Origin: an uncultured Eubacteriales bacterium
GTDB lineage: Bacteria > Bacillota > Clostridia > Christensenellales > Aristaeellaceae
Assembly (NCBI GenBank): GCA_902801165.1
Contig: CADCHI010000017.1
Span: 62,001 to 126,000 of the forward strand
Length of the DNA stretch: 64,000 nucleotides
Direction of reading: 5' to 3'
Shown: positions 13,275 through 37,550 of the stretch, one piece after another
How the letters are laid out: each line of letters opens with the position of its first letter
How positions within the stretch are numbered: the first letter of the stretch is position 1
Position numbers and translations under genes: made by a program
Notes under the pieces: model-generated
Seen by the model: only the letters and a program-made list of their open reading frames with translations
Database searches by the model: none
What the model was told of the DNA's origin: nothing

Positions 13275-13490
13275 CTTGGAATTTGGCGGGCTGACGCACG
13301 AGTTTGGAGTGTGGAGTTTGGAGTTTGGAGTTTGGAGTTACAGTTAGTCGCGCACAGACATTGTTCGATTGTAGGGCTTTTGTTCCCGCGAAAACGCCTG
13401 ATTTGCTGAGCAAATGACATTCCGCCGTTCTCAGGCATTCTTTAACTCCACACTCAACCCTCCACACTCAACACTCAAACAACTTCCAAG
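13275..13490. repeat. Inverted-repeat element A with low-complexity arms
   Basis: This fills most of the 332-bp gap between the LCP gene and the FecCD gene. The outer termini are CTTGGA (13275) and TCCAAG (13490). The inner arms are degenerate short repeats of the TTTGGAG/TGTGGAG type (13301-13340) and their approximate reverse complement (13443-13480). The core of about 100 bp carries further small dyads such as ATTTGCTGAGCAAAT. Other members of this class lie in the sugar operon at 28.8-37.6 kb. Confidence 0.75.
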
Positions 13491-13511
13491 TTGTCGCTCC
13501 CCCGAACGCCA

Positions 13512-13539
13512 CGGGCGGAGGGGATATCCCCTCCGCCCG
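13512..13539. terminator. 28-bp perfect palindrome after the LCP gene
   Basis: The arm GGGCGGAGGGG is mirrored exactly around ATAT, 23 bp past the LCP stop. No T-tract follows on either strand. Probably the 3' end structure of the operon that starts at the LoaP-like gene. Confidence 0.55.
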
Positions 13540-13562
13540 GAACGTCGTCTATACTTGTCTCG

Positions 13563-14645
13563 TCAGCCCTCGTCCTCGGCGAACAGGAACGCCCGCATCG
13601 CCTCGCCATTGGCCTCGGCGTCCACCAGGTGGCCCTTGGTGCCAGCCACGATGTCGTACTCGTTCATGGCCTCCAGGGGCAGGATGGTGCGGTCCACAGC
13701 GCTGAAGATGTCGTAGCCCTGGCGGGAAGCGTCGTAGGCGGCCTTCATCAGCGTCGTGGAGATGCCCACGATGTCCTCGTCGGAGAGGTTGTTGTAGGAC
13801 TTCTCGAAGATCGGGGAAACCAGCTCGCGCAGGAAGTCGATGTCCTCTTCGGTCATCTCGTCCAGGTTGATGGGCCGGCGGCTGCCGATATCCTCGGGCA
13901 GGTCGTATTCGTTGGAGTACAGCACGACCTTTTCGGCGATGCTGTCGCCCACGCTGCTGAACAGGTCCGCGATGACCTCCAGCTCGCGCAGGCAGCAGTT
14001 GTACACGGAGTCATACTGCAGCCAGCCGAAGCCCACGGCCTGCAGGCCGTTCAGGTGGGTGTCCGGGCCGTACTCGTTCAGGTAATACTCGTTGGCGAGC
14101 ATCTCGACCACCGCCTGGCTCAGCAGGCCGGAATCCGCCTGAGCCTTGAGGCGCTCCTCCTTGGAGCCCACCATGCCGTTCAGGGCATTGCGCTCCGCGC
14201 GGGAAACGTCGACCTCAACGCCGCCGAAGGTGTCGATCAGCGAGGCCAGGTTCAGGTAGTTCAGGGACATGAACAGGTCGATATCCATGCCGAAGTTGGT
14301 GTTGAACACCTCGAGGGTCTCCTCCGGACCGTTGTTCCGGTAGGGCATGCCGATGCGCTGGGGCACGTCGTAGCCCTCGTACTGCACGAAGGTATCCCAC
14401 ATGAACACCAACAGGCGAATCTTGCCGCTATTGGGGTTCATGCCCACCACCATCATGGTGTTGCCGGAGTTTCCGCCGGCGTTGGTCATGCCCTCGTTGC
14501 AGAGCAGGAAGAACGTCACCCAGTCATCGCCCTCGTTCTCGGCCAGCGCGCCCAGGGGCAGCAGGCACAGAACCATCATCAGGGCGGTCAGGCGGAGGAG
14601 CATCCGCTTCATCGGGAGCTTCGCGCGATTCGCATTACGCCGCAT
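13563..14645 (-). CDS. LCP (LytR-CpsA-Psr) family protein with degenerate active site
   Basis: LCP enzymes attach undecaprenyl-linked glycopolymers to peptidoglycan outside the membrane. After a signal peptide (LLRLTALMMVLCLLPLGALA), residues about 55-220 follow the LCP pattern: NTMMVVGMNPNSGKIRLL, then FMWDTF, then NLASLIDTFGGVEVDV. The usual Arg-Asp motif is Trp-Asp here, and the Arg-rich segment before the end of the domain reads AVGFGWLQYDSV, so catalysis is doubtful. The ATG at 14645 overlaps the end of the repeat-protein gene and has GAGGAGG nine bases upstream; an ATG at 14612 is the alternative. Last gene of the unit. Confidence 0.78.
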   Translation of the reverse strand: MRRNANRAKLPMKRMLLRLTALMMVLCLLPLGALAENEGDDWVTFFLLCNEGMTNAGGNSGNTMMVVGMNPNSGKIRLLVFMWDTFVQYEGYDVPQRIGMPYRNNGPEETLEVFNTNFGMDIDLFMSLNYLNLASLIDTFGGVEVDVSRAERNALNGMVGSKEERLKAQADSGLLSQAVVEMLANEYYLNEYGPDTHLNGLQAVGFGWLQYDSVYNCCLRELEVIADLFSSVGDSIAEKVVLYSNEYDLPEDIGSRRPINLDEMTEEDIDFLRELVSPIFEKSYNNLSDEDIVGISTTLMKAAYDASRQGYDIFSAVDRTILPLEAMNEYDIVAGTKGHLVDAEANGEAMRAFLFAEDEG

Positions 14646-17600
14646 CAACCATCGCCTCCTCTTCCACTTCTTCATCCGCCGGCAACGGGTTGCGGTCCTG
14701 GTCATAGCGGCTGGTGACGATCAGATTGCCGTCCTCGTCATAGTAGCCGTTCCAGCCAGCGACGCCCTCGGCGTTATTGATCAGCTTGTTGTAGCGGTCC
14801 AGGTAGCGCTCGGAGATCAGCCGTCCCTCGTTGTCGTAGCCGCGCTCGACGCTGGAATAGCCCTCCGCGCAGTTGATCTGGGCGTGGATCTCGTCGAAGT
14901 AGCCCTCCCAGACGCGGTTGCCGTTCTCGTCGTCCTCGTACTCCAGAATCGCGTAGCCATCGGTGATGGTGATGGGCTCCTCGTTCTGGTCGATGTAGGT
15001 GATCCTGTGGACCTTGGTGACGGGATAGTACAGCGTGTACACGCCCCAGGCGTTGTTGTTCGCCGCTACGGGCTCGCCGTTCTCATCCAGGTAATACTGG
15101 TAGTAGCGCTGCTCGGTGTTGGAGTTGCTCAGGTCGTAGTCGTACTGTATGGCGGCGTAGCCGTCGTCATTCAGCGCCGGGTTGCCCGCGGCATCCAGCC
15201 AGGTTTCCATCTCCAGGTTGGCATAGGCGTTGTACTCGCGCTTCAGGCCGAACACGCCGTTCACCAGGGTGCCGTTGCCCTCGCCGTCGAAGTAGCGGAT
15301 CATCGAGATCTGGCCGCGGCTGGTGTACTCGCGGGTCACCATGGCGCAACCCTCGACACCCTCGACCGGCGCGTCGTTCGCGTCGAAGTAGCGGCTGACG
15401 ATCACGCGGTCGTAGCGGTCGTAGGTCAGCACGGAGTAGGCGCCATCTGCCTCGGCGGTGGGATCCTCGTTCACCACGCGCATCTCATAGGTGCCGCTGG
15501 CCTCGTCCTCGGAGATCAGCTCGCGGCTGGTGAAGCTGTAGGTCAGCTCGCCGGTGGCGTCGCCCTTGCCCTCCGTGTGGGCCACGGGCGTGCCGGTGGC
15601 GTCCACGTAGCTCTCCTCGGCGATCAGGTCGCTGTCGGTGTAGCTGATGTGGTGGGAAGCGTAGCCCTCGCGGCAGTTGACCGGGTTGCCCATCGGGTCG
15701 TAGTAGTCCTCGCCGGTCAGACGGCCCTCGTCGTCATACTCCATCAGCGCGAAGGCGTAGCGGGCATCCAGCTGCTCGACGCCCATGGACTTGGAATCCA
15801 GGTAGCGCTCGGCGGTCAGGTTCCCCAGGTCGTCATACTCGTACTTCGCGATGGCGTAGCCCATGGTGGTGTCCACCAGGTTCTCCTCGACGTCGTAGAA
15901 GGCTTCCTCGGTCACGTTGCCCAGCTGGTTGTAGGCCGTGGTCTTCTTCGCGTAGCCGCGGTTGCAGAGGGTCATATTGCCCGCGCGGTCGTAGTAGGCG
16001 ATGGAGGTCTCGCGGCCGGCCAGGTCGTAGGTGTAGCGGATCTCGGCGTACTGGTTCGCGTAGGACACCGGCTCGCCGGAGATGCCGAAGTACTTGACGG
16101 AGAGCACGCGGCCGTCGGGATCCACGTCCCTGCTCAGCCAGGAATACAGGCCGCTGGTGTGGACCGCGGGCTGGCCCTGGGCGTTCAGCAGGTGCTCCTC
16201 GACGCAGTGGTTGCGGTTGTCGTAGGTGTAGGTGATCTCGCTGTAGCCGTACTGGCACCAGGTCAGATCGCCGGTCTTGCTGTAGTAGGACTGGCGGGTC
16301 ATGTTGTTGCTCTTGTCGTACTCATAGCCCACCGCGGCGAAGCCGCCCGCCAGGGTCACCGGCTGGCCCTCGCCGTCCAGGTACTCGCGCTTGACGAGGC
16401 GCTGGTGCTCATCCCAGGTGTTGCGCAGCGTGGCATAGCCGGAGGAGCACAGCACCGGGGAGTCGTTCAGATCCAGGTAGGTCTCGGTCAGGATGCTGCC
16501 GTTCTTGTCCACCGTGCGCAGGATCGACGCATAGCCCTCGTTGATATAGGTGCGGTTGTAGCTGTCGTCCAGGTAGGTGATCCGCACCACGTACTGGTTG
16601 TTGTCGTACAGGAACTCGGTGACCGCGTAGCCGCCGTTGGTCAGCGTGGGCTGGCCGGAGGCGTCCAGATAGACCGTGCGCCACACCTTGCCCTGGTCAC
16701 CGTACTCATAGCGGATGCCGGCGTAGCCGGAGGAGATCTCCCGGGGCAGGCCCCTGGAGTTCAGGTAGGTCTCGCTGGCCTTGCGGTCATTGGAGTCGTA
16801 GGTGTACACGATGGTGGAGAAGCCGGCGGCGGTCTCCACAGGCTGCAGCGCCGCGTTCAGGTACTCCACGCGAATCACGTTGCCCCGGAAGTCGTAGGTG
16901 TTCCGGGTGGCGGCGATGCGGTCCGTCAGGGACGCGATGCGCTCGTTCTCGTCCAGGTACTGCTCCATGATGACATGGTTGCTGCTGTCGTACTCGCGCT
17001 TCCAGACGCTGAAGCCCTCGGGCACGCGGGTCAGGTTGTCCTGCTCGTCCAGGTAGCGAACCTCCAGCGTGTTGCCGGCGTTGTCGTAGACGTAGCCGAT
17101 GGCGGAATAGCCCTTGGCGATCATCACGCGGTTCATGCCGTCGTCCAGGTAGCTCTCCTGGGTCAGGCGGTTGCGCGCGTCGTAGGTGTACTCCACCGCC
17201 GCATAGCCGGCGTCCAGCATCACGACGTCGCTGTCGTAGTAGTAGACGGAGCGGACGCAGTTGCCCGCGGCGTCGTACTCGTGGGTCACGCGGTTGGAGC
17301 CGTCCGGCATGATGGTCGGCTGACCCTCGAACATGTACCAGGCTTCCTCGGTGCAGTTGCCGTTGGCGTCCCTGGCGTAGGTCACGTAGCCGTAATCGCC
17401 GTCGATCAGTATGTAGCGCTCGTCGTCGCCGAAGTAGGCCACGCTGGTCAGGAAGCCCTGGGCGTTCCAGGTCTGAACCCTGCGGGCATAGCCCTCGCGC
17501 TGCTCCAGCAGGTTGCCGTAGCCGTCGGTGAACTCCTCGGTCAGCAGGCGGCCTGCGCTGTCGTAGGTGCACGTGCGCAGCGCGTAGCCCTTCGTGGAGA

Positions 17601-20232
17601 TCACGGGCTCGCCGTTCACGTCGTAGTAGGCCTCGGTCAGCGGGTTGCCCAGCCGATCGTAGGTGGTGAACATGGCGGCGTAGTCGCCCCGCAGCATGTA
17701 GGGTGCGCCGGTCTCGTCGAAGTAGCGCTCGCTGAGCAGGCGGCCCTCGCCGTCATACTCGCGGACGATCTCGGCGGCGCCGGAGGTGACCGCGGCCACC
17801 TTGCCGTCCTTGTCGTAGTAGACCTCGCGCACCAGGTTGCCGGCGGCGTCGTATTCGCACACGAAGGCGGCATAGCCGTCCGGGCACTCCGCAGGCTGGC
17901 CGTCCGCGTCGTAGTAGGCCTCGGTCAGCATGTGGCCCGCGATGTCCCAGGTGTGCGCCACGCGGTGATAGCCCTCGGAGACGGTCACGGGTTCGTGGGC
18001 CGCGTCGAAGTAGGCCTCGCTGATGCGGTTCCCCATGGCGTCATAGGCGTATTCCACGCTGGCATAGCCCAGGGCCGTGTCCACCGGCTGGCGGTCAGCG
18101 TCCAGGTAGGCGACCTGGGTCAGCGCGCCATTGGCGTCAAAGGCCTGGGTGAACACCGCGTAGTTGTCGCGGTTGACGATCAGGCTGCCGTCCGCGTCGT
18201 AGTAGGCCTCCTCCAGCACGTTGCCGGCGGCGTCGCAGCTGCGCTCGAAGCGGGCGTAGCCCACGGAGGCCGGGGCGACGGCGGTGCCGTCCACGTCGTA
18301 GTAGGCGCGCATCAGCAGGTTGCCGTTGGTGTCGTACTGCTGCTCGTAGGCGGCATAGCCCGTGGACAGCAGGACCGGGTTGCCCTCGCCGTCCAGGTAC
18401 TCCACGCGGCTCATCAGGCCGGTGTGGGCGTCGTAGGCAATCCTGCGGGCCGCATAGCCCTCGTTGATCAGCACGGGCTGCTGGTCGGCGCCGAAGAAAG
18501 CCTCATAGGTCACGTGGTGCTGGTCGTCATATCCGCGCTCGATCCGGGCGCTGCCGTTGACGGCCACCGGCTCGCCCTCGGCGTTGAAGTAGGCCACGGA
18601 GGCGATGTTGCCGTTCGCGTCGTAGGCGTAGCGCGCCGAAGCGTACCCGGAGGCCTGGGTCAGGGCCGAGCCGTCCGGGGCAAAGTACTTGTCCTCGGTC
18701 ACATGGCCGACGTAGTCATAGCGGTGAGCCTCGACGGCGTACTGTCCGCCGGAGGTGACCAGCTGGCCTTCAGTGTCGAAGGTCGCCTGCCACAGCAGAT
18801 TGCCGTTGCCGGCGTATTCGCGCAGCAGGGAGGCGTAGCCCAGGTCGATGGCCTTGGGATTGCCGTCCTTGTCGAAGTAGCGGGCCATGGTCTGGACCTG
18901 CCTGCCGTCAAAGGCGTACTCCGCGCGGTGAGCGCCGGTGGACGCGGACACATCCGCGTTGCCGTCGGCATCGAAGAACGCCTCCGCCACCAGCAGGTTG
19001 CTGTGGGGTCCGCTGTAGGTCATGTCGTGGATGTAGTAGCCATCCGTGCTCTCGCAGGGAGCACCGTTCTCATCGAAGTAGGCCTCGGAGATCGCCGGCT
19101 CGTTGGGGTCGATGCCCGCGTACTCATAGGTGATGGAGGCGTACTGGTGCTCGTCGTCGCGGGTCGGCTGCAGATTGGCGTCCAGCGTCACGGTGCGGAC
19201 CACCTGGCCATACTCGTTGCGCTCGTTCACCAGGACGGCATAACCCGCCTTCTTCTCGATGGGCTTCAGGTCGGTGCCGTAGTAGCTCTCGCGCTCCACC
19301 GCGTCGGGATTCAGCTGCCACTGGCCGTCTTCGGATTCCTCGCCGCCGCGGCCATGGTAGTACAGCCACTGTATGCGGGCGTAGCCGCCCATGCACATGG
19401 TGTACTGGTCCTCGGTGTCGTAGTAGGTCTCGCGGTAGTCGAAGTCCTCACCGCCGTACTCGAGCTCCACCCGGGAATAGCCCGCGGTGATCATCGTGCG
19501 GTGGTCGTCGGCGCCGTAATAGGTGATGTAGTGCAGGCCGGAGCCGTCGTACTCGTAGGTCACCTTGGCATAGCCGCCCATCAGGCGGATCAGGTTGCCG
19601 TCGGTGCCGAGGTAGTCCGTCTCGATCACGTTGCCCGCGGCATCATAGGTATTGACCACGGAGGCGTAGCCGCCGGAGGCCAAGATGGGGTTGCCCTCGG
19701 CGTCGAAGTAGTCGGTGCGCACCAGGCGCTTCTCGGCGTCGTAGGTGTTGAACAGGCGATGCCACCGGCTCGCGCCCAGGACCTCGGTGCCGTCCGTGCC
19801 GAACACCGCGCAGGACTTCTCCCGCCCGGCCTGCAGGTCCGCCTCGTCGGCATAGGTGACGACGTACTCCGCGCCGCCCTCTTCGCCGGTCAGCGGGGAG
19901 CCGTCGGCGTTCAGGTAGCGCTTGGCGATGACGATGCCCTCGGTCTCGTCAGAGCGCTCGTAGACGATCTGCGCGAAGCCGCCGGTGGGCCGGGTCAGCT
20001 GGCCGTCGGCGCCGTAGAAGGCGGTGGACACGAGGCGGTCGTCTTCCCAGGTATCCCGGCGATAGCTGTAGCTGCCGGGGATATCCGCCCGGTTGCGATC
20101 GGCGTCATAGCGGTCCTCGGTCAGCAGGTGGGTCTCCCCATGGCTGTCCGTGTGGTAGCTGTACTCCGCCATGGCATAACCGCCGTCGGCGACGACCAGC
20201 TGCCCGTCCAGGCCATAGTACGCCTCACCCAC
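14635..20232 (-). CDS. Giant tandem-repeat protein (about 58 repeats of about 32 residues), apparently lacking its native N-terminus
   Basis: 1865 residues are visible, almost wholly made of repeats with the consensus EAYYDADGxPVxxxxGYAxx followed by xxxYDxxGNLL(T/S). The period is about 32 residues (96 bp). The YDxxGN spacing resembles Rhs/YD repeats, but there is no Rhs core and no C-terminal toxin; the protein simply ends with an acidic tail. No signal peptide or membrane segment is visible because the reading frame enters at a junction with larA near 20,241. The GTG at 20232 has no ribosome binding site and lies inside a repeat. Neighbouring LCP and nucleotide-sugar genes suggest a cell-surface role, which is inference. 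Confidence 0.7.
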   Translation of the reverse strand: MGEAYYGLDGQLVVADGGYAMAEYSYHTDSHGETHLLTEDRYDADRNRADIPGSYSYRRDTWEDDRLVSTAFYGADGQLTRPTGGFAQIVYERSDETEGIVIAKRYLNADGSPLTGEEGGAEYVVTYADEADLQAGREKSCAVFGTDGTEVLGASRWHRLFNTYDAEKRLVRTDYFDAEGNPILASGGYASVVNTYDAAGNVIETDYLGTDGNLIRLMGGYAKVTYEYDGSGLHYITYYGADDHRTMITAGYSRVELEYGGEDFDYRETYYDTEDQYTMCMGGYARIQWLYYHGRGGEESEDGQWQLNPDAVERESYYGTDLKPIEKKAGYAVLVNERNEYGQVVRTVTLDANLQPTRDDEHQYASITYEYAGIDPNEPAISEAYFDENGAPCESTDGYYIHDMTYSGPHSNLLVAEAFFDADGNADVSASTGAHRAEYAFDGRQVQTMARYFDKDGNPKAIDLGYASLLREYAGNGNLLWQATFDTEGQLVTSGGQYAVEAHRYDYVGHVTEDKYFAPDGSALTQASGYASARYAYDANGNIASVAYFNAEGEPVAVNGSARIERGYDDQHHVTYEAFFGADQQPVLINEGYAARRIAYDAHTGLMSRVEYLDGEGNPVLLSTGYAAYEQQYDTNGNLLMRAYYDVDGTAVAPASVGYARFERSCDAAGNVLEEAYYDADGSLIVNRDNYAVFTQAFDANGALTQVAYLDADRQPVDTALGYASVEYAYDAMGNRISEAYFDAAHEPVTVSEGYHRVAHTWDIAGHMLTEAYYDADGQPAECPDGYAAFVCEYDAAGNLVREVYYDKDGKVAAVTSGAAEIVREYDGEGRLLSERYFDETGAPYMLRGDYAAMFTTYDRLGNPLTEAYYDVNGEPVISTKGYALRTCTYDSAGRLLTEEFTDGYGNLLEQREGYARRVQTWNAQGFLTSVAYFGDDERYILIDGDYGYVTYARDANGNCTEEAWYMFEGQPTIMPDGSNRVTHEYDAAGNCVRSVYYYDSDVVMLDAGYAAVEYTYDARNRLTQESYLDDGMNRVMIAKGYSAIGYVYDNAGNTLEVRYLDEQDNLTRVPEGFSVWKREYDSSNHVIMEQYLDENERIASLTDRIAATRNTYDFRGNVIRVEYLNAALQPVETAAGFSTIVYTYDSNDRKASETYLNSRGLPREISSGYAGIRYEYGDQGKVWRTVYLDASGQPTLTNGGYAVTEFLYDNNQYVVRITYLDDSYNRTYINEGYASILRTVDKNGSILTETYLDLNDSPVLCSSGYATLRNTWDEHQRLVKREYLDGEGQPVTLAGGFAAVGYEYDKSNNMTRQSYYSKTGDLTWCQYGYSEITYTYDNRNHCVEEHLLNAQGQPAVHTSGLYSWLSRDVDPDGRVLSVKYFGISGEPVSYANQYAEIRYTYDLAGRETSIAYYDRAGNMTLCNRGYAKKTTAYNQLGNVTEEAFYDVEENLVDTTMGYAIAKYEYDDLGNLTAERYLDSKSMGVEQLDARYAFALMEYDDEGRLTGEDYYDPMGNPVNCREGYASHHISYTDSDLIAEESYVDATGTPVAHTEGKGDATGELTYSFTSRELISEDEASGTYEMRVVNEDPTAEADGAYSVLTYDRYDRVIVSRYFDANDAPVEGVEGCAMVTREYTSRGQISMIRYFDGEGNGTLVNGVFGLKREYNAYANLEMETWLDAAGNPALNDDGYAAIQYDYDLSNSNTEQRYYQYYLDENGEPVAANNNAWGVYTLYYPVTKVHRITYIDQNEEPITITDGYAILEYEDDENGNRVWEGYFDEIHAQINCAEGYSSVERGYDNEGRLISERYLDRYNKLINNAEGVAGWNGYYDEDGNLIVTSRYDQDRNPLPADEEVEEEAMVDAA

Positions 20233-21128: not shown

Positions 21129-21180
21129 GCGCCGTCACCCTATGCCCTCTGGCAGCGCCGGAAGGCTCCCATGAGCGCTT

Positions 21181-23151: not shown

Positions 23152-23244
23152 TCAGTCTTATTCCTCATTTGAATCGGGCCGCCCGGGGCGGTTTTCCCCG
23201 AAGCGGCGCCATTCTGTCATCTATCGAGGCCGCGTCCCGGCGCG

Positions 23245-24234: not shown

Positions 24235-24397
24235 AGAGTGTGTTTCTAAATGCCGGGAGATGCAGTTTCGAGTGGATTTGTCTGCATTTCAAGGCGATTT
24301 CCCGCAGGCTTAGTGGGGCTAAGTCAAGGGAAATCAACGCAGAAACGCAGTCAAATACGCCGAAAATGCGCTTCAGGCATTTTAGGAACAGACTCTA
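24235..24397 (+). repeat. MITE-like dispersed repeat, copy 1
   Basis: Bounded by imperfect terminal inverted repeats AGAGTGTGTTTCTAAATGC and the complement type GCATTTTAGGAACAGACTCT. The interior contains GGCTTAGTGGGGCTAAGTCA and GGGAAATCAACGC. Two more copies lie at 39,249 (opposite orientation) and 40,769. No coding capacity. Occupies most of the gap between the LoaP promoter and the tRNA gene. Confidence 0.85.
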
Positions 24398-25945: not shown

Positions 25946-26055
25946 TGCTAACTTGCGTCGCCCGGGCAAACCCCGAACCCGGCATCCTCCGAACGCCACG
26001 CATAAATGGAATTGCAGGGACACACGAGCGACAATACAAAGACTCGAACAGCGTT

Positions 26056-26317
26056 CCGGGCCGCCCATGTTCCATGGGCGGCCCGGACAGGATGTTGACA
26101 AAGTCAACAGACTGGAGGCCGCTGAAAAAGTCTGCAAGGCAAGGCGGCAAGCCTGCAAAAAAGGGAGTTTACCCGGTTGTAAATGACCGCATTTTGCAGG
26201 CGCTGCCAACGCAGCAAGCAAGAATCCCACCTGCTTTTCTTCCATCAGGTGGGATTCTTGCGATTGTGGGCTTTGTCAGCGGTCTGCCGGGCCGCCCATG
26301 TTCCATGGGCGGCCCGG
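26056..26317. repeat. Intergenic repeat block bounded by two identical 31-bp palindromes
   Basis: The same 31-bp palindrome (14-bp arms ending CATGGGCGGCCCGG around TTC) occurs at 26056-26086 and again at 26287-26317. Between them are the dyad GTTGACAAAGTCAAC (26094-26108), a stretch of GCTGAAAAAGTCTGC type recalling dispersed repeats of gut Clostridia, and a perfect 14-bp hairpin AAGAATCCCACCTG (26220-26259) that may end ilvE transcription. No gene is visible between 25,876 and 26,352. Confidence 0.75.
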
Positions 26318-26352
26318 ATGGTTTATCTGTGCGGCAGCTAATGCGTGCAGAC

Positions 26353-27656: not shown

Positions 27657-27680
27657 TCAAGCGCCCCGCGGCGCTCAGAT

Positions 27681-27711
27681 GGGCATGGATGGAACTCCAT
27701 GCCCTTTCTTT
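27681..27711 (+). terminator. Riboswitch-controlled intrinsic terminator
   Basis: GGGCATGGA (27681-27689) pairs with TCCATGCCC, followed by TTTCTTT, 25 bp after the candidate aptamer and 50 bp before queT. Probably the expression platform. Confidence 0.75.
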
Positions 27712-27760
27712 GCCGGCCTTCACGGAGCTTCACTGCCAACAATCAAGGGAGGAAAACCCC

Positions 27761-28297: not shown

Positions 28298-28323
28298 GGC
28301 CGCCGCGCAAAAGCATACATGAA

Positions 28324-28368
28324 CGGCCCCCTGTCCGGCGAAAGCCGAGGCAGGGGGCCGCTTTTTTT
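28324..28368 (+). terminator. Intrinsic terminator of queT
   Basis: CGGCCCCCTG (28324-28333) with CAGGGGGCCG (28351-28360), followed by seven Ts; a smaller hairpin occupies the loop. Confidence 0.88.
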
Positions 28369-28384
28369 CTTCAACTGTTCCGCC

Positions 28385-28828: not shown

Positions 28829-28852
28829 AGTATGGCCTCCTTTGGTGGTATT

Positions 28853-29146
28853 AATTGGAAGTTGTCTGAGTCAGGGAAAAGGGAATAGGGAAAAGGGAAA
28901 AGGAAAAGCAGTTGCCACGTAGGAGCGCAACCTTCTTGGCTGCCTTTCTGGGGGGGCCGGCACCGACGTAGTCGGTGACTGAGAGGTCGTAACCCTCAAA
29001 CATACCGTAAAACAAAGCATTTCGTGAAAGGGGAGGCAAGGCTGCCGCGTTTCGATCAAATGCTGGTGTTCCAAGCGGCAGCCACTATTCCTTTTCCCTT
29101 TTCCCTTATCCCTTTTCCCTCGGCATCAGCCCCGCAAATTCCAATT
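28853..29146. repeat. Inverted-repeat element B with G/A-run arms
   Basis: This fills the 317-bp gap between kinase and mutarotase genes and abuts the kinase stop codon. Outer termini AATTGGAA (28853) and TTCCAATT (29146). The 31-bp inner arms (28873-28903, 29090-29120) are built of GGGAAAA-type units and are reverse complements with two mismatches. The core of about 185 bp carries CGGCAGCC and pieces shared with other dispersed repeats (GAGGCAAGGCTGCCGCG, CTGAGAGG). No gene seen. Confidence 0.8.
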
Positions 29147-30621: not shown

Positions 30622-30644
30622 AATCGAACTCCGTTCTCATATCA

Positions 30645-30731
30645 AATTAGGAATTAGGATTTGGGAATTAGGAATTGGCTGCCCGCGCAGGGTCTCCATA
30701 GTTCCTAATTCCTCATTCCCAATTCCTAATT
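30645..30731. repeat. Inverted-repeat element C with AATTAGGA-type arms
   Basis: Arms 30645-30674 and 30702-30731 consist of degenerate AATTAGGA/TTGGGAATTAGG units. They are nearly perfect reverse complements around a 27-base core starting TTGGCTGCCCGCGCAG. It spans almost the whole gap and ends one base before the transketolase stop codon. Confidence 0.82.
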
Positions 30732-30732
30732 G

Positions 30733-31662
30733 TCAGATATTCTCCTTCACGGTCTTCGCGATCCCCTCGGCGTTCAGGCCGTAGTGGTCGAAGACCTCCT
30801 TGGACGTGCCGGTGATGACGGGCGCGTCGGGCAGGGCGAGGTTGATGACCTTCTTGGGGTCGTTCGCGCCGATGACCTGGCTGACCATGCTGCCCAGGCC
30901 GCCGAAGGGGCTGTGCTCCTCCACAGACACGACCACTTTGACGCCCTTGGCGGCGTCCAGCAGGCCGTTCACGTCGAGGGGCTTGACGCAGTACATATCG
31001 AGGACCGTCGCGCTGATGCCTTCGGCTTTGAGCAACTCAGCCGCGTCCTTGGCGGGCTTGACCATCTCGCCGCAGGCCACGATCAGGGCGTCGGTGCCCT
31101 TGGTGACGACCGTCGCCTTGTCCATCTCAAAGGGCACGTTGCCCTCCTCGTAGGTATCCTCCACGGCGTTGCGGCCGATGCGGATGTAGGCGGGCTTCTC
31201 GTCCTTCAGCAGCGCCTCGAACAGGCAGCGGGTCTGGAAACGGTCGGAGGGCAGGTAGACGCGCATGCCGGGGATGGCGCACATGCCCGCGATGTCCTGA
31301 GCGGAGTGGTGGCTCATGCCCAGCGCGCCGTAGCTGACGCCGCCGGAGATGCCGATCAATTTCACGTTGGTCTGGGAGTAGGCGCAGTCCACCTTGGCCT
31401 GCTCATAGGAGCGGGTGGAGAGGAAGGACGCCGGGGAGGCCGCGTAGGCCTTCTTGCCGCACTTCGCCAGGCCCGCGGCGATGCCCACCAGGTCCTGCTC
31501 GGCGATGCCGACCTCCACGAACTGCTCCGGGAATTCCTTGGCGAAGGGGGCCAGGGACGCGCTGCCGCGGGAATCGCTGCACAGCACCACGATGTCCTTG
31601 TCCGTCTTGGCGTGCTCGGAGAGGACCTCGCAGATGATCTGCCTGTTGGTGATTTTATTCAT
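30733..31662 (-). CDS. Transketolase C-terminal subunit (split transketolase)
   Basis: Carries the pyrimidine-binding and C-terminal domains of a two-subunit thiamine-diphosphate transketolase. 309 residues: DIVVLCSDSRGSASLAPFAKEF near 20, catalytic-type stretch FVEVGIAEQDLVGIAAGLAK near 48, SYGALGMSHHSAQDIA near 110, and the C-terminal domain with LDMYCVKPLDVNGLL near 225. It overlaps the N-terminal subunit gene by eight bases. Split transketolases are common in specialised sugar pathways, for example apulose-4-phosphate transketolase. Confidence 0.9.
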   Translation of the reverse strand: MNKITNRQIICEVLSEHAKTDKDIVVLCSDSRGSASLAPFAKEFPEQFVEVGIAEQDLVGIAAGLAKCGKKAYAASPASFLSTRSYEQAKVDCAYSQTNVKLIGISGGVSYGALGMSHHSAQDIAGMCAIPGMRVYLPSDRFQTRCLFEALLKDEKPAYIRIGRNAVEDTYEEGNVPFEMDKATVVTKGTDALIVACGEMVKPAKDAAELLKAEGISATVLDMYCVKPLDVNGLLDAAKGVKVVVSVEEHSPFGGLGSMVSQVIGANDPKKVINLALPDAPVITGTSKEVFDHYGLNAEGIAKTVKENI

Positions 31663-32485
31663 TTGCGAACGCCTCCTCGTATGCCTTGAGATCCTTCATG
31701 ATCTGCTCGTATTCCTCCTGGGACGGCACGTGGTGGTGCCAGCTGGCCTTGTTCTCCATGACGGCGGAGCCCTTGCCCTTGGTGGTGTTGGCCACGACCA
31801 GGGTCGGGCGGGACTTCACGGTCTTGGCCTCGTCGAAGGCGGCGTTCATGGCGTCGATGTCGTTGCCGTCCACGCTGATGACGTTCCAGCCGAAGGCCTT
31901 GAAGCGCTCCTCGACGTAATCCTGGTGCATGACCTCCTCGGTGGTGCCGGAAATCTGCAGGCGGTTGCGGTCAACCACCGCGCACAGGTTGTCCAGCTTG
32001 TACTGGGTCGCGCTCATGGCGCCCTCCCAGACGGAACCCTCGGCCAGCTCGCCGTCGCCCATGACCACGTAGGTGCGGGCGTCGGTGCCGTTCATCTTCT
32101 GCGCCAGCGCCATGCCGATGGCCACCGGCAGGCCGTGGCCCAGGGAGCCAGAGTTCATCTCGATGCCCGGCAGCTTGTTGTTGGGATGGCCGATGAACTT
32201 GGAGCCGAACTGGGAATACTCCTTGATGACGGTTTCAATCGGGAAGAAGCCCTTCTCCGCCAGCACCGCGTAGAGCGCCTCCACGCAGTGGCCCTTGGAC
32301 ATGACGAACATGTCGCGGGTCGGGTCGTTCTGGTTCTCCGGGGAAATGTTCATGGCGTGGAAGTAGATGGACACCAGCGTCTCCATCACGCTCATGTCCC
32401 CGCCGATGTGCCCCGCCTTGCCGGCCATGATCATCTCGACCACGTCCCGGCGGAGCTTGTAGGATAATGCCTTAAGATTTCGCAT
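31655..32485 (-). CDS. Transketolase N-terminal subunit (split transketolase)
   Basis: Binds the thiamine-diphosphate pyrophosphate and Mg. 276 residues with GKAGHIGGDMSVMETL near 20, SKGHCVEALYAVLAEKG near 68, LGHGLPVAIGMALAQKMNG near 115 and the ThDP motif GDGELAEGSVWE (GDG...N-like) near 140, followed by VDRNRLQISGTT. Translationally coupled to the C-terminal subunit. Together they would transfer a two-carbon unit from the phosphorylated ketose made upstream in the pathway. Confidence 0.9.
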   Translation of the reverse strand: MRNLKALSYKLRRDVVEMIMAGKAGHIGGDMSVMETLVSIYFHAMNISPENQNDPTRDMFVMSKGHCVEALYAVLAEKGFFPIETVIKEYSQFGSKFIGHPNNKLPGIEMNSGSLGHGLPVAIGMALAQKMNGTDARTYVVMGDGELAEGSVWEGAMSATQYKLDNLCAVVDRNRLQISGTTEEVMHQDYVEERFKAFGWNVISVDGNDIDAMNAAFDEAKTVKSRPTLVVANTTKGKGSAVMENKASWHHHVPSQEEYEQIMKDLKAYEEAFANE

Positions 32486-32502
32486 ATGTTATACACTCCT
32501 TT

Positions 32503-32578
32503 AGTGTGGAGTTTGGAGTTAATAGCTGCTGCCGCGCGGCATTCTAAACTCCACACTCCACCCTCAACACGCCACACT
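32503..32578. repeat. Inverted-repeat element D with TGTGGAG-type arms
   Basis: AGTGTGGAGTTT (32503-32514) pairs exactly with AAACTCCACACT (32546-32557), with further degenerate complementary units to 32578. The core is GCTGCTGCCGCGCGGCATTC. The element fills the gap between isomerase and transketolase genes and ends next to the isomerase stop. Confidence 0.75.
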
Positions 32579-32581
32579 CAA

Positions 32582-34006
32582 TCAGACTTCGTCAAACGTC
32601 ACATCTTCGCCATGCAGGTACGCCTTCACCTTGTCCTCGATGGGGTCGTACAGGTCGGGCTTGACGCCGATGTACTTGCAGGCCTCGTAGACCACCGGCA
32701 CGACATCGCCATGGATGGCGGCCACGTGGTGGATATAGGGGCCCTCGACCACCTTGGCCTCGAGGCGCTTGAGGTTGTTGACTTCGACCCACACATAGGT
32801 GCCGCGGGTCCAGGGGCCGTCGATGCCGCGGGCATGGCCCAGCAGGATGGAATACTCGCCGTCGTCGCCGTCGAAGCGCACCAGGCTCATGGGGCCGTGC
32901 TTGGCCTCGGCGGACACCGCGCCGTTCTGGGGGAAGGCCACCGGCACGCAGATGCTGGGCTTCTCCTTGGCCACGGAGATGGGCCAGGGGCCGCAGTGCT
33001 GCAGCAGCTCGCCGTTGTCGTTGTCGGGGTGGCGCACGGTCCAGTCGGAGAACATGACCCGGCGCTCGCCCATGGCGGCGGCCTCGGCGATCAGCTGGCT
33101 GATGGCGCCGTGGATATCGGTCTCGCAGATCACCGGGATGCCCTCTTCGTTGAGCAGCGCGTTGGCGGCGCAGGGCATGATGTGGATCTCGTCCTGCAGG
33201 GCGTTCCAGCACTGGATGGCGATGGCGTTGCAGCCGTACTTCGTTGCCAGGCTCTTCATGGCGACCTTCAGCGCGGCGACCTCGGTGAGGCCCTCCTCAT
33301 CGATGGAGCAGGTCATGTACTCGTGGCAGTAGTCCACGACCTTCTGCACCTCGGTCTTCTCGGCCTTCCACTTGCGCATCTCGGCGTACAGCTCCGGCAG
33401 CGGGATGGGGGCCAGCTGGATGTTGAACTTCTCCAACAGCTCGCCCTCGTTGCACATGGTGGACCAGAAGTCGAAGGGGCGCGGGCCGATCTGCAGGATG
33501 CGGGTGGAGCGGAAGACCTTCACCACGTTGCACACGGCCAGGAAGTCCTTGATGCCGCGCTCGAACTCGGGGTCCTCCAGGTTGCAGTTGTTCATGTAGG
33601 TGAAGGGCACCTTGAAGCGGCGCAGCACCTTGCCGGTGGCGAACAGGCCGCACTGGCTGTCGCGCAGGCGCATGCCTTTCTCGTCCGGGCGCTCGTCCCG
33701 GGGGCCCCACAGCAGCACCGGCACGCCCAGGGCCTTGGCCAGGCGGGCGCACTCGTACTCGGTGCCGAAGTTGGCGTGGGGAATGAACAGGCCGTCCACC
33801 TTCTCGGCCTTGAACTTGGCGATGATCTTCTCAAGGCCAGCGTCGTCAAACAGCAGGCCCTCGTCGTTCACGTCGTCGATGTCCACGAAGTCGATGCCCA
33901 GCTCGCGCAGGCGGTTCGCGGTCAGCTTGCGGTATTCCAGCGCCGCCGGGGCCGAGAAGATGGCCCTGCGGGTCGGCGCGTAGCCAATTTTGATGTGTGC
34001 AGACAT
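32582..34006 (-). CDS. L-fucose isomerase-like ketol isomerase
   Basis: Expected to convert an aldose to a ketose using Mn. The 474 residues have the FucI/AraA-like architecture. The N-terminal alpha/beta domains contain GLFIPHANFGTEYECARLAK. A central region contains CWNALQDEIHIMPCAANALLNEEG and CETDIHGAI near 300, where metal ligands are expected. A C-terminal barrel-like domain contains GPYIHHVAAIHGD. It is distinct from canonical hexameric FucI (about 590 residues) and belongs to the shorter fucose-isomerase-like group whose substrates are mostly unassigned. Neighbours suggest a sugar processed by kinase and transketolase. Confidence 0.82.
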   Translation of the reverse strand: MSAHIKIGYAPTRRAIFSAPAALEYRKLTANRLRELGIDFVDIDDVNDEGLLFDDAGLEKIIAKFKAEKVDGLFIPHANFGTEYECARLAKALGVPVLLWGPRDERPDEKGMRLRDSQCGLFATGKVLRRFKVPFTYMNNCNLEDPEFERGIKDFLAVCNVVKVFRSTRILQIGPRPFDFWSTMCNEGELLEKFNIQLAPIPLPELYAEMRKWKAEKTEVQKVVDYCHEYMTCSIDEEGLTEVAALKVAMKSLATKYGCNAIAIQCWNALQDEIHIMPCAANALLNEEGIPVICETDIHGAISQLIAEAAAMGERRVMFSDWTVRHPDNDNGELLQHCGPWPISVAKEKPSICVPVAFPQNGAVSAEAKHGPMSLVRFDGDDGEYSILLGHARGIDGPWTRGTYVWVEVNNLKRLEAKVVEGPYIHHVAAIHGDVVPVVYEACKYIGVKPDLYDPIEDKVKAYLHGEDVTFDEV

Positions 34007-34034
34007 GGTGTATCTCCTTTTTGGGTCGATGGGG

Positions 34035-34174
34035 AATTGGAAGTTGTCTGAGTCAACAGGCAGTAGGCAACAGGCATCAGTCAGAATGCCGCTGTCGCGT
34101 TGTCATATATACATACGTCAAAGGGCGGCAGCCACATTTTGACTATTGCCTTATGCCTGTTGCCTGATGCCTCA
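34035..34174. repeat. Inverted-repeat element E with GGCAACA-type arms
   Basis: Starts AATTGGAAGTTGTCTGAGTC, the same outer end as element B. The left arm of GGCAACA/GGCATCA units (34054-34083) is complementary to 34140-34174. The core includes GCCGCTGTCGCG and GGCGGCAGCCAC. Sits between permease and isomerase genes. Confidence 0.75.
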
Positions 34175-34198
34175 ATCTCACTTCGCCTCGTTCCGCGC

Positions 34199-35212
34199 CT
34201 ACAGGGCCATCTTGTTCTGCAGGTTGCGCTGGGTCTGATCAATGACGACGGCGAGGATGATGACGACGCCGCGGATGATCTTCTGCCAGAACTCGGACAC
34301 GCCGCACATGGTCATGCCGTCGTTGATGACGCCGATGACGAAGGCGCCGACGATGGTGCCCACGATGGTGCCGGAGCCGCCGGCCATGGAGGTGCCGCCC
34401 AGGACGGTGGCCGCGATGGCGTTCATCTCCCAGCCGTCGCCGGAGGCGGGGTGCGCGGCGGACAGCTGCGCGGTGTTGATCAGGCCGATCCACGCGGCGC
34501 AGAAGCCGGAGATCATGTAGACCAGGATCTTCACCCGGTCGGCCTTGATGCCGGACAGGCGGGCGGACTTCTCATTGCCGCCCACGGCCAGGATGTGCCA
34601 GCCCACGGAGGTGCGCTTGAGCAGGATCGCCGCCAGCACCGCCAGCACGGCGAACACGTACACGCCAGCGGGGATGTTCAGCCAGTTGGTGCCCAGGGCC
34701 TTCAGGCCCACGTTGCCCAGGCCCTCATAGCCGGCGATCTTGGAGAAGGTCGCGCCGTTGGAGCGCAGGTTCGCCAGGCCGCGGCAGACGTACATCGTGC
34801 CCAGGGTGGCGATGAAGGCCGCCACGTTCAGCTTGGTGACGATCAGGCCGTTGATCAGGCCGATCAGGCAGCCCGTGAGCAGCATGATCACGATGATGGC
34901 GGGCACGGAGAAGTAGATGGTCTTGCCGCCGATGGTCAGGCCTTCCTGGATCAGTCCGCCGGCCAGCATGCCCACCAGGCCCACCACGGAGCCCACGGAC
35001 AGGTCGATACCGCCGGTGATGATGACGAAGGTCATGCCCAGGGCCAGTATGCCGTACAGCGCAACGTGCTTGGCGACCATCGTCAGCGTGCTGGGCTGCA
35101 GGAAGGAGGAGGACGCGAAGCTGAAGAAGATCACCAGGATGATCAGCACGATAAAGGTGCGGCCCTTCAGCAGCGTCATCAACAGCTGATTGTTGTTCTT
35201 TTTCATATTCAT
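34199..35212 (-). CDS. Sugar ABC transporter permease (RbsC-like)
   Basis: Membrane channel of the pentose/hexose importer. 337 residues, about eight to ten helices, BPD_transp_2 family: FVIITGGIDLSVGSVVGLVG near 60, and AIAATVLGGTSMAGGSGTIVG near 265. The ATG at 35212 has AGGAG five bases upstream; a second ATG follows two codons later. Twelve bases downstream of the ATPase gene. A single permease gene implies a homodimer, unlike the two-permease ytfT/yjfF system at the left. Confidence 0.9.
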   Translation of the reverse strand: MNMKKNNNQLLMTLLKGRTFIVLIILVIFFSFASSSFLQPSTLTMVAKHVALYGILALGMTFVIITGGIDLSVGSVVGLVGMLAGGLIQEGLTIGGKTIYFSVPAIIVIMLLTGCLIGLINGLIVTKLNVAAFIATLGTMYVCRGLANLRSNGATFSKIAGYEGLGNVGLKALGTNWLNIPAGVYVFAVLAVLAAILLKRTSVGWHILAVGGNEKSARLSGIKADRVKILVYMISGFCAAWIGLINTAQLSAAHPASGDGWEMNAIAATVLGGTSMAGGSGTIVGTIVGAFVIGVINDGMTMCGVSEFWQKIIRGVVIILAVVIDQTQRNLQNKMAL

Positions 35213-35224
35213 ACCACTCCTGTC

Positions 35225-36763
35225 TTAAGCGCTCTTGCCCGTGCCGAGGCCGGCGTAGGAGGCGCGAACCAAGTTGTCCTCGGTGATTCCGTCGCCCTCC
35301 AGCTCCGCGGTGCACTTGCCGTTGGAAAGCACGTAGATGCGGTCGGCGATGGCCATGATCTCCTTCAGCTCCGAGGAGATGACGATGATCGAGAGGCCCC
35401 TCTCGGAAAACTCATGGATGATTTCAAAGACCTCGGTCTTGGCGCCGATGTCGATGCCTCGGGAGGGCTCGTCCATCAGCAGCACCGTGGGCTGGGTCAT
35501 CAGGCCCTTGGCGATGACCACCTTCTGCTGGTTGCCGCCGGAGAGCGACAGGATCGGCAGGTGCTTGTCCGCCACCTTGATGTGCAGGTCCTGGATCTGG
35601 GCGTCCACGGCCTTCTCCTCGGCGGGGTAGTTCATCAGAAGTCCCCGGCGGAAGCTCTCCAGCGAGGCCAGCGAGGCGTTCTTGCAGATGTCCAGGCTCT
35701 GCACCAGGCCCTGCCGCTGCCGGTCCTCTGGCACCAGCGCGAAGCCCTTCTTCAGCTGGTCGGCGACGCCGCCCACCCTCATGGGCTTGCCCTGGTAGGT
35801 GATCTCGCCGGTGTGCTCCGGCCGCAGGCCCATCAGACACTCGAACAGCTCGCTGCGGCCCGCGCCCAGCAGGCCATAGATGCCCAGCACCTCGCCCTTC
35901 TTGAGGTACATGCTCACGTCATCCAGCAGCCAGCCGCCGCCGGTCTTGGGCAGGTAGATGTGGTTGAACTCCAGCACCTTCTCGGCGTGCTTCAGGTCGA
36001 TGGAGCGCTGGAAGCGGTGGTACTGGGTGTTCTTGCCCACCATGTTCTCCACGATCCAGGAGAGGGTGATGTCCTTGATGTCGGCGTCGGCCACATACTT
36101 GCCGTCCCGCAGGATGGTCACGTGGTCGCCGATCTCCATGATCTCCTCCAGGCGGTGGGAGATGTACACGATGGAGATGCCCTGCTCCAGCAGCTCGCGC
36201 ATGATCTTGAACAGCACCTTCACCTCCGCCGCCGACAGGGACGAGGTGGGCTCGTCCATGATCAGCACCCGCAGGTCGTTCTCCACCAGGTTCCGCGCGA
36301 TCTCAACCATCTGCTGCTGGCCGACGCGCAGGTCGCCCACCAGGGTGTCCGGCGGAATCTCGTGCTCCAGGCGCTTCAATATCGCCCGCGCGCCCTCCAG
36401 GTGCTTCTTGTCGTCCAGGAAGATGCCCTTTTTCTTCTCGTGGCACATGAAGATGTTCTGGTAGACCGTCAGGTTGGGAAACAGGCTCAGCTCCTGGTGG
36501 ATGATGCCGATGCCCCGGGCCCGGGCGGCGTTGGTGTCCTTGAAGAACACTTCCTCGCCGTCCATGTACATCTTGCCCGCCGAGGGCTGCTCGATGCCGG
36601 CGATCATCTTCATCAGGGTGGACTTGCCCGCGCCGTTTTCGCCGATCAGCACGTTGACCTTGCCCTTCAACAGGTCGAAGGACACCTGGTCCAGCGCCTT
36701 CGTGCCGGGATAGATCTTGTCTATTTTTTCACAGTGGAGCACTACATTGGGATCATCAAACAT
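35225..36763 (-). CDS. Sugar ABC transporter ATP-binding protein (RbsA-like, tandem ABC)
   Basis: Double ABC ATPase for the RbsC-like permease. 512 residues from the ATG at 36763, which has GGAGGG seven bases upstream. The first half has GENGAGKSTLMK and VLIMDEPTSSLS. The second half has LSLSGGNQQKVVIAKGL and VLLMDEPSRGID, with a degenerate Walker A (GLLGAGRSE), as normal in this family. Follows the DUF2291 gene after 14 bases. Confidence 0.9.
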   Translation of the reverse strand: MFDDPNVVLHCEKIDKIYPGTKALDQVSFDLLKGKVNVLIGENGAGKSTLMKMIAGIEQPSAGKMYMDGEEVFFKDTNAARARGIGIIHQELSLFPNLTVYQNIFMCHEKKKGIFLDDKKHLEGARAILKRLEHEIPPDTLVGDLRVGQQQMVEIARNLVENDLRVLIMDEPTSSLSAAEVKVLFKIMRELLEQGISIVYISHRLEEIMEIGDHVTILRDGKYVADADIKDITLSWIVENMVGKNTQYHRFQRSIDLKHAEKVLEFNHIYLPKTGGGWLLDDVSMYLKKGEVLGIYGLLGAGRSELFECLMGLRPEHTGEITYQGKPMRVGGVADQLKKGFALVPEDRQRQGLVQSLDICKNASLASLESFRRGLLMNYPAEEKAVDAQIQDLHIKVADKHLPILSLSGGNQQKVVIAKGLMTQPTVLLMDEPSRGIDIGAKTEVFEIIHEFSERGLSIIVISSELKEIMAIADRIYVLSNGKCTAELEGDGITEDNLVRASYAGLGTGKSA

Positions 36764-36777
36764 TGCGCGCCCTCCTG

Positions 36778-37365
36778 TCATTCAATGGTGATGGCGATCG
36801 GCGTAATCGTCACCTCGCTGCCGGAGGCGACCGCAGCGCCGGTGATGGTCACGGTCTTGCCCACCACGCCGTCGTCGATGGCCAGCGGGGCCACCACCAG
36901 CTCATGCAGCTGGCTGTTCAGCGCCTTGGCGTAGGCGCTCCACTCGGTCTGGTTGGTGAAGTCGGCGAAGGCCTTCACGGACTGCACGTCGCGCACGGCG
37001 GTGCCGGAGTAGATGCTGCCCAGCTGGACGACGAAGGTCTTGTCGCCGCTGTAGCCCTCGGGCACCACGGCGATGGAGTTCTTCTTGCCGTTGGCCTTGG
37101 AGATGAACTCGGTGACGCTGCCCTTCAGCGTCACGGCCTTGCCGTCGCCCAGGGCGTCCAGGTCCACCGCGCCGATGTCCTGGGCCGCGGTGGTGATCTC
37201 ATCGACGATGGCACTCCAGTCGTCGCTGGAGGACGCGCCGGCGTCGAAGGCCACCTCGCCGGTGTACTGGCCCTCGGTGCCCTTGTCGATGACCTTCGCG
37301 GACAGGCAAAGGAACGCCACCAGCGCCACGCACACTACGATGATGATGATTTTGCTCTTGCTCAT
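36778..37365 (-). CDS. DUF2291 family protein (sugar-transporter-associated)
   Basis: Small membrane-anchored protein found next to some sugar ABC transporters; molecular role unknown. One N-terminal transmembrane helix (KIIIIVVCVALVAFLCLSA), then an extracytoplasmic domain of about 165 residues with the family signature VVQLGSIYSGTAVRDVQSVK near 105 and FTNQTEWSAYAKALNSQ near 132, ending in a small beta domain. The ATG at 37365 follows AAGGAG, giving 195 residues. Located between the binding protein and ATPase genes, so probably a transporter accessory. Confidence 0.85.
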   Translation of the reverse strand: MSKSKIIIIVVCVALVAFLCLSAKVIDKGTEGQYTGEVAFDAGASSSDDWSAIVDEITTAAQDIGAVDLDALGDGKAVTLKGSVTEFISKANGKKNSIAVVPEGYSGDKTFVVQLGSIYSGTAVRDVQSVKAFADFTNQTEWSAYAKALNSQLHELVVAPLAIDDGVVGKTVTITGAAVASGSEVTITPIAITIE

Positions 37366-37381
37366 AATTGACTCCTTCTTG

Positions 37382-37550
37382 AATTGGAATTTGCAGAGCA
37401 AATTCCAAGTTAAGGCAATAGGCAACAGTCATTAGGCAACAGTCAAAATGTGGCTGCCGCGCTTTATCGCGGCATTGATTGAAAACGCGGAAGCGGCTAT
37501 CTGACTAATGCCTGTTGCCTACTGCCTGTTGCCTCAGATCAATTCCAATT
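37382..37550. repeat. Inverted-repeat element F with GGCAACA-type arms
   Basis: Outer termini AATTGGAA (37382) and TTCCAATT (37550). A 9-bp hairpin GGAATTTGC (37386-37406) precedes the left arm of GGCAATA/GGCAACAGTCA units (37412-37445), which pairs out of register with 37502-37534. The core starts AAAATGTGGCTGCCGCG. It shares arm type with element E, three kilobases away. Confidence 0.78.

Follow-up and report, generated by a model that had tools for sequence, protein, structure and literature searches.

Intergenic elements with inverted heptamer arms in an uncultured clostridial genome: probable non-coding relatives of elements that encode S23p proteins

We analyzed a stretch of 64,000 nucleotides, hereafter the window, from an uncultured Eubacteriales bacterium of the family Aristaeellaceae (GenBank assembly GCA_902801165.1, contig CADCHI010000017.1, positions 62,001 to 126,000 of the forward strand), in which six gaps between genes hold elements, A to F, bounded by inverted arms of short repeats. 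These elements are probably non-coding members, similar to miniature inverted-repeat transposable elements (MITEs), of a dispersed class that is bounded by a pair of inverted arrays, each of about five 7-base repeats. Fuller copies carry one gene, for the small four-helix-bundle protein S23p, which has been met until now chiefly in insertions of rRNA genes and which would act on the arms. In keeping with MITEs, A–F are short and dispersed, have inverted ends, and carry no transposase gene.

All six elements follow one plan, in which a purine-rich left array and a core are followed by a pyrimidine-rich right array that is the reverse complement of the left (Table 1). The unit is 7 bases long in every element, and the side with AG lies 5' and the side with CT 3'. 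Chains of AG/CT heptads count 6/5 in A, 5/5 in B, E, and F, 4/4 in C, and 3/5 in D, whose left arm is short, with two to three units where the right arm has about five. Outer ends of the TTGGAA/TTCCAA type flank A, B, and F on both sides and E on the left only, and C and D have none; in F, a small complete palindrome of this end lies beside the left arm. An earlier note on this DNA had described six such gap elements, all of which are present at or very near the places it gave. Its degenerate, short-unit arms were likewise borne out, with the correction that no unit is 8 bases long, not even AATTAGG in C, and the outer ends it saw in four elements are complete in three and one-sided in E.

The design recurs across the genome that holds the window (hereafter the home genome), as the earlier note had held. 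In 300,000 bases of this genome that were not picked for matches, period-7 arrays number 12, against 0–4 in ten shuffles. In a home sample of 457,585 bases, enriched by the window itself and by stretches picked for matches to element B, there are 35 against 2 after block shuffling, with 1 against 1 at period 8 and 0 against 1 at period 10; periods 6, 9, 12, and 15 are likewise in excess (33, 30, 53, and 31), which is taken to be coding periodicity. Long matches to element B occur at 13 places in the home genome; six of these are contig-end fragments and may join up as halves of single copies, which leaves at least ten B elements; a pattern search for B copies returned none with one regular expression and 11 with another. 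Matches to B were found in 27 of the 28 genomes of the genus (the exception being G020) and in 1 of 32 outside it. Because minus-strand matches were not turned, the alignment of B-copy arms mixes orientations; only the arms and ends, being symmetric, were read from it. The inner-stem string GGCTGCCGCG alone is not a marker, since it is no commoner in the home genome than its reversed control (66 against 83).

A catalogue of the home and sister genomes, built with a home-made gene finder, contains 64 gaps with at least one array. One G-rich array is followed by one C-rich array in 38 of them and the reverse order is never found, the remainder being 22 single arrays and four other arrangements. 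The catalogue's detector caught five of the six window elements, missing F, and a few rows, such as L076:7899, L067:2104, and L154:1789, resemble GC-rich or coding arrays, not elements. Across the 39 gaps in which a G-rich array precedes a later C-rich one, the arms pair with a mean score of 21.8, against 11.8 when permuted (maximum 15.8; 0 of 5000 permutations), so the claim that the unit differs between elements yet matches within each holds. Pairing is weak (below 14) in four of the 39, i.e., the short-armed D, L074:946, L152:3734, and L168:6483. The last two (L152:3734-3905 and L168:6483-6592), both of genome G001, are chimeric, with AATTGGG or AATTAGG on the left and a GGGAAAA-type unit on the right, which suggests recombination between elements. 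The earlier note had staked its reading on elements being found elsewhere in the genome and on arms not varying independently; the elements are found, and independent variation is confined to the two chimeras.

Comparison of sister genome G016 with the home genome revealed an open reading frame between the arms of one element that matches TIGR02436, a model described as a four-helix-bundle or 23S rRNA intervening-sequence protein. Four sister S23p proteins match PF05635 of Pfam, one of them also a bAvd-like model, below the cut-off. In the genus there are 41 S23p matches, spread over 20 of 28 genomes, of which 40 were examined and G015:C277, at a contig end, was left out. Complementary heptamer arms stand on both sides of 26 of 30 loci; the exceptions are L204, the interrupted copies L195 and L207 of a single genome, and L191, which is truncated where its contig begins and retains its right arm. 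Ten further loci have arms in seven cases and not in L390, L391, and L396. Set against controls, arms flank 26 of 29 genus loci vs. 0 of 109 offset windows. The home genome has two S23p genes that we found, both between arms, and their units are those of elements B and C (Table 1). Similarly, G006 has element-A cores with AGAGTGG-type arms and an S23p gene with AGAGTGC arms, and G016 has element-A cores with AGAGTTA and an S23p gene with AGAGTT arms. The inner stem GCTGCCGCG of non-coding elements also occurs in two coding elements of the genus, L211 and L395.

S23p genes lie between such arms in many phyla. A broad set was formed from the best 80 of at least 516 relatives in GTDB genomes, with one peptide pattern required, and is neither complete nor random; its record titles name Bacillota or Clostridia, Bacteroidetes, Cyanobacteria, Proteobacteria groups, Acidobacteria, Planctomycetes, Verrucomicrobia, candidate phyla, and others. 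Arms were called at 54 of 79 loci (one of the 80 was too short) and, at a stricter flank length, at 53 of 76 vs. 4 of 440 offset windows; around the called genes of the home sample, among which the gene finder had not called the S23p genes themselves, they were called at 4 of 339. A further set, with gene positions taken from match coordinates, covered eight plasmid records and the genomes from which eight of the loci came, and here arms flank 31 of 38 S23p loci; nine of these (L350–L357 and L366) repeat the earlier set, eight of them positive, which leaves 23 of 29 new loci. The S23p genes of Anabaena and Nostoc sit between heptamer arrays, and in Trichormus variabilis ATCC 29413 the S23p arms have CAGAATT. 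Of the 25 S23p loci at which no arms were called, 20 were scanned with Rfam (all but L286, L288, L290, L292, and L293), which gave no rRNA family, the three matches being an FMN riboswitch and two Acido-Lenti-1 RNAs, and one S23p protein used as a query had no match in phage records at an E-value of 1e-6.

Some of the plasmid S23p genes are found inside operons. L380 (Anabaena sp. 90) lies between cas6 and cas4 and has 32 consecutive AG heptads, resembling the long cyanobacterial repeats; L384 (Picosynechococcus PCC 7003), whose arms score below threshold, lies between cas10 and cmr3; and L382 (Nostoc edaphicum) lies between two ribonucleotide reductase genes.

Unit information was computed for 78 of 110 loci (24 from the genus and 54 from the phyla), after exclusion of those with an arm score below 16, short flanks, or no in-frame protein motif. 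In the many-phyla elements of period 7, two adjacent positions are nearly fixed as AG (0.90 and 0.97), and the unit carries 4.44 bits, against a column-permuted null with a mean of 3.31 and a maximum of 3.56. Three or more AGs in register are present in 36 of 41 of these elements, against 20 of 41 for the next dinucleotide. Taking genus and phyla together, the left arm holds an AG row in 55 of 65 elements and a CT row in four; within the genus, GG equals AG in constancy (23 and 22 of 24). The commonest repeat number is five AG or CT steps, one gap being allowed, in the coding elements of the genus (9 and 13 of 22), the coding elements of the phyla (12 and 12 of 35, with six nearly as frequent as five in the 5' arms, 11 vs. 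12), and the non-coding elements (14 and 18 of 36), against three in shuffled flanks. The period is 8 instead of 7 in 10 of 54 many-phyla elements, and a Flavobacterium has an 8-base unit. Eight-base AG/CT steps number five on each side in L352, L356, and L385, 3 and 5 in L350, and 5 and 3 in L384. Period fits the protein tree loosely (seven changes against a shuffled mean of 9.5, with 4 of 500 shuffles as low), a fit to which near-copies may contribute.

Protein and arm similarity are correlated within the genus (Spearman 0.653 for 22 elements; 0 of 2000 permutations), and shallow S23p protein clades have units in common. The core of element A has matches in six of the 28 genomes (home and five sister species), with arms of GGAGTTT/GGAGTGT in G000, AGAGTTA/AGAGTTT in G016, AGAGTGG/AGAGTGA in G006, and GGAGTGT or AGAGTGG in G003. 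For 19 of 23 such cores (L322, L331, L337, and L341 were dropped, as no heptamer array was seen 5' of the core), arms pair at 21.3 within a copy, 21.6 with other copies of the same genome, and 13.6 with those of other genomes, and 2621 of 5000 within-genome permutations were as good as own-copy pairing. Since the arms of copies within a genome are interchangeable, their matching is a property of the lineage that is not renewed in each copy, and copying of one arm from the other, one of the two causes that the earlier note had thought implied, is not needed. Such lineage-wide matching resembles, by analogy, that of a transposon with both ends read by one protein.

The same gaps in sister species can hold other units or no array, which answers a check that the earlier note had proposed. 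In the glpK–transketolase gap, the home genome and G003 have AATTAGG arms, G016 has GGGAACA, and G025 has GGGATTA, and no such array was found in this gap of G010 and G005. The isomerase–permease gap holds GGCAACA in the home genome and GGGAACA-type units in G016 and G001, and the gap of element F holds GGCAACA in the home genome vs. GAGTTTA in G016, the adjoining TTCCAA end being common to both. The gap before ispG, inspected by eye, has heptamer arrays of several units in 7 of 25 species and is almost absent in at least five. The rseP–ispG gap of G000 holds GAGAGTT, which is the first unit of the G016 element; insertion beside that unit and a loss that spared one unit cannot be told apart here. 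At another site, the counterpart in G000 of a G016 S23p element with AGAGTT units is only an array of GAGTGTG units resembling a right arm.

These observations would be explained if the arms were inverted rows of putative protein-binding sites that a ring of S23p recognizes as DNA or single-stranded DNA, with one AG heptad for each subunit of an S23p pentamer. Avd and its relatives are pentamers, and TRAP is a ring protein that binds (G/U)AG repeats. Only two PDB entries match S23p in sequence, 2rld and 2gsc, each with five chains; XCC0516, one of the two, is presumably a Xanthomonas campestris protein, judging by the prefix of its name. A five-fold ring fits five AG heptads in number, and for this reason binding of the S23p ring to the arms is proposed as the central step. 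The ring may bring both ends of the element together and so serve its movement, with strands cut and joined by a presumed host enzyme, and non-coding copies with a matching unit could be served in trans. If both ends are read by one multimeric protein, the site arrays must be identical and inverted, the arms would be complementary with no need for an RNA stem or for copying between arms, and units would differ as S23p lineages and their arms drift together.

Several findings weigh against this proposal. In the window, no S23p gene or clear remnant of one was found (tblastn with 78 queries; best E-value 0.086), so that A–F can only be non-coding relatives, and no cognate S23p gene was found for the units of A, D, E, and F in the home assembly, which is 88.6% complete. 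Coding elements rarely show the outer ends or the inner stem: of 40 coding loci, only two have TTGGAA nearby, in each case half of an end, and eight match a looser pattern of the stem, one half of which occurs in at most 3 of 30 coding elements. The correlation of protein with arm similarity is not seen across phyla (0.081; 190 of 2000 permutations). AG is missing from several Bacteroidota elements, and no AG heptad row of note is present in L353, L363, L366, L373, L376, and L378 or in the GGGAATT arms of L211. Single arrays make up 22 of the 64 gaps in the catalogue. At the orthologous sites compared, no target-site duplication could be defined and no excision footprint was seen.

Some of these points would suit a different history, which we consider unlikely, in which heptamer hairpins arise by themselves through slippage and template switching and their tips are invaded by parasitic S23p genes, as are helices of 23S rRNA, the S23p protein being inactive on the arms. 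Most catalogue elements are non-coding, single arrays and two chimeric elements occur, and units differ at one locus between the close species G000 and G016, all as this history would have it. Free slippage, however, would not be expected to give a repeat peak at five, a polarity of 38 to 0, or an AG common to unrelated phyla, and the interchangeable arms of copies within a genome and the units common to shallow protein clades also count against it. It is very doubtful that the elements are instead ordinary MITEs of an unseen transposase that recognizes TTGGAATTTG outer ends, with heptamers and S23p as cargo. Copies are dispersed, and TTGGAA[GT]TTG or CAA[AC]TTCCAA adjoins heptamer arrays at 12 of 13 places in the home sample (ten by script and two beside F), but C, D, and most coding elements are without such ends, which were not searched for in elements of other phyla.

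Quite improbable, too, is a role as host structures. The elements would then be long RNA hairpins that act from operon gaps on mRNA stability or expression ratios, and their arms would stay complementary under selection for pairing as the units drift. The predicted RNA folds of A–F are stable (z-scores of −3.7 for A, −8.1 for B, −7.5 for C, −3.0 for D, −8.9 for E, and −7.1 for F), and 20 of 22 non-edge array-bearing gaps in the home sample are co-directional (with two convergent, none divergent, and three more at an edge), vs. 168 of 262 among all non-edge gaps of at least 40 bases (with 47 convergent, 47 divergent, and 11 more at an edge). If a stem were selected for, the other cause that the earlier note had regarded as implied, G-U pairs should outnumber A-C mismatches on the transcribed strand. 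The two number 23 vs. 25 in 24 coding elements of the genus, 115 vs. 134 in 67 many-phyla elements, and 27 vs. 35 in 22 non-coding elements of co-directional gaps, so that such selection is not supported. Against RNA hairpins there is also the absence of the element from the same gap in some sister species, and the arms that flank S23p genes in many phyla. Inverted rows of S23p sites remain the probable explanation of the arms.

Parts of this picture have precedents. MITEs and the repetitive extragenic palindromes and bacterial interspersed mosaic elements (REP/BIME) are short, dispersed, and intergenic, with inverted ends and no gene; unlike them, the elements described here end in degenerate heptad arrays of varying unit, and the gene of the fuller copies, S23p, is not a known transposase. 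The short tandemly repeated repetitive (STRR) heptamers of cyanobacteria are intergenic 7-base arrays. Passages of a 2016 paper on Coxiella describe a 23S rRNA intervening sequence (IVS) of 428 nt with inverted terminal repeats and an S23p frame, which it calls a selfish element, with tandem GACAGAT heptamers before the gene, and term IVS function and origin unclear (PMC4990558). The Coxiella heptamer also contains AG. Like the elements studied here, this IVS is small, with inverted ends and an S23p-named protein (PMC4990558), whereas IVSs, in the accounts at hand, reside in rRNA genes and are cut out as RNA by RNase III. Ours are found between protein genes and carry, on either side, heptad arms that are specific to the element; many of the copies are non-coding. 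The GGGNATC heptamer repeats of Xanthomonas and Nostoc are reported, in part of a paper, as intergenic, under-represented between divergent genes, and with a preferred count of four; GGGAATC arrays form 70 and 75 convergent inverted pairs in two Xanthomonas genomes (PMC4692102). Unlike here, the portion concerned gives one unit type per genome group and reads the repeats as G-quadruplexes, and the string 'S23' does not occur in the text (PMC4692102); GGGNATC is not matched by the units of A–F (GGGAAAA, AATTAGG, GGAGTTT, and GGCAACA). TAACTGA repeats are likewise intergenic 7-base arrays scattered over distant phyla, described, in an excerpt of their report, mainly as direct repeats and there without a link to S23p (PMC4679880). 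Excerpts of other papers hold PF05635 and the Avd of diversity-generating retroelements to be homologous (PMC10053308), place a 23S_rRNA_IVP frame in rRNA insertions of Candidate Phyla Radiation bacteria (PMC11270868), and include the S23p family, in one figure, among genes that are associated with modules for CRISPR adaptation (PMC10910872), a link that S23p elements inside cas operons could explain. Among open-licence PMC papers, none was found that joins S23p with heptad arms outside rRNA, and an exact-string literature search with the six arm sequences gave no match. Thus, rRNA IVSs with S23p as selfish elements, heptamers before the Coxiella gene, and the inverted pairs of Xanthomonas were already published; new is the S23p gene as a partner of heptad-arm elements between protein genes.

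All six elements lie between protein genes and none inside an rRNA gene. Elements B–F occupy gaps of one minus-strand gene cluster that encodes a fucose mutarotase-like protein, GlpK, a split transketolase, an isomerase-like protein, an ABC permease and ATPase, a protein that matched no family, and a binding protein, and A lies between two further co-directional protein genes.

Table 1. Positions of the six elements and their outer ends in the window, and of the two S23p genes of the home genome (contig:position).
Feature	Position	Description
Element A	13276..13489	TTGGAA outer ends; arms GGAGTTT/GGAGTGT; 5' arm ~13299-13342, 3' arm ~13445-13480; core ~13343-13444
Element B	28855..29144	TTGGAA outer ends; arms GGGAAAA/GGGAATA, 28873-28908 and 29085-29120; inner GGCTGCCGCG..GCGGCAGCC
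Element C	30645..30731	AATTAGG arms ~30645-30675 and ~30701-30731; fills the glpK-transketolase gap
Element D	32500..32577	Arms GGAGTTT/GGAGTGT; left arm short; inner GCTGCTGCCGCGCGGC
Element E	~34037..34174	Left end TTGGAAGTTG; arms GGCAACA/GGCAGTA ~34054-34083 and ~34140-34172
Element F	37384..37548	TTGGAA mini-palindrome 37384-37408; arms GGCAACA/GGCAGTA, GGCAACA arms ~37412-37445 and ~37502-37535; inner GTGGCTGCCGCG; right end TTCCAA
TTGGAA-type outer ends	13274-13285, 13480-13491, 28853-28864, 29135-29146, 34037-34046, 37384-37408, 37539-37548	
S23p gene	L075:15172-15642	Arms GGGAAAA, unit as in element B
S23p gene	L074:17772-18247	Arms AATTAGG, unit as in element C

Other repeats were seen in the window and in further stretches. 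A core of about 200 bases (GGATGTTGACAAAGTCAACAGACTG .. TTTGTCAGCGGTCTG) is flanked by two copies of a whole terminator-like hairpin at window positions 26055-26318 and at L070:4391-4675; the two cores are alike and the hairpins different, and the G016 site matching that of the window has one hairpin and no core. The arrangement looks like the result of an insertion with duplication of a terminator. A second family resembling MITEs, some 160–200 bases long with ends like AGAGTSTGTTTCTAAA, is found at window positions 24235-24396 and 40768-40971 and in L060, L069, L071, L076, and L078; both window copies are absent at the matching G016 sites, and one G016 copy is absent in the home genome. A third family, of hairpins of about 70 bases with AGATCCTTCGCTTCGCTCAGGATGAC, is found at window positions 40547-40623 and 52476-52542 and in L062, L063, L069–L072, and L075.

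S23p genes are usually annotated as just a four helix bundle or S23 ribosomal protein, and the arms offer a concrete candidate ligand for them, i.e., five AG heptads with a polarity and a lineage-specific unit. The arms also link puzzles that have stood apart: the heptamer repeats of cyanobacteria and Xanthomonas, the IVSs of rRNA, and S23p genes in operons, including cas operons. We tentatively entertain, at somewhat less than even odds, the wider idea that S23p heptad elements form a separate and widespread class of bacterial mobile elements, in which a five-membered ring of four-helix bundles reads five AG heptads at each inverted end and ring and unit evolve as changing pairs; many heptamer repeats that lack an explanation (cyanobacterial STRR, the GGGNATC pairs of Xanthomonas), 23S rRNA IVSs, and gap hairpins like A–F would then be its arms, insertions, and non-coding offspring. 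If this is true, a common type of element is now being overlooked by annotation.

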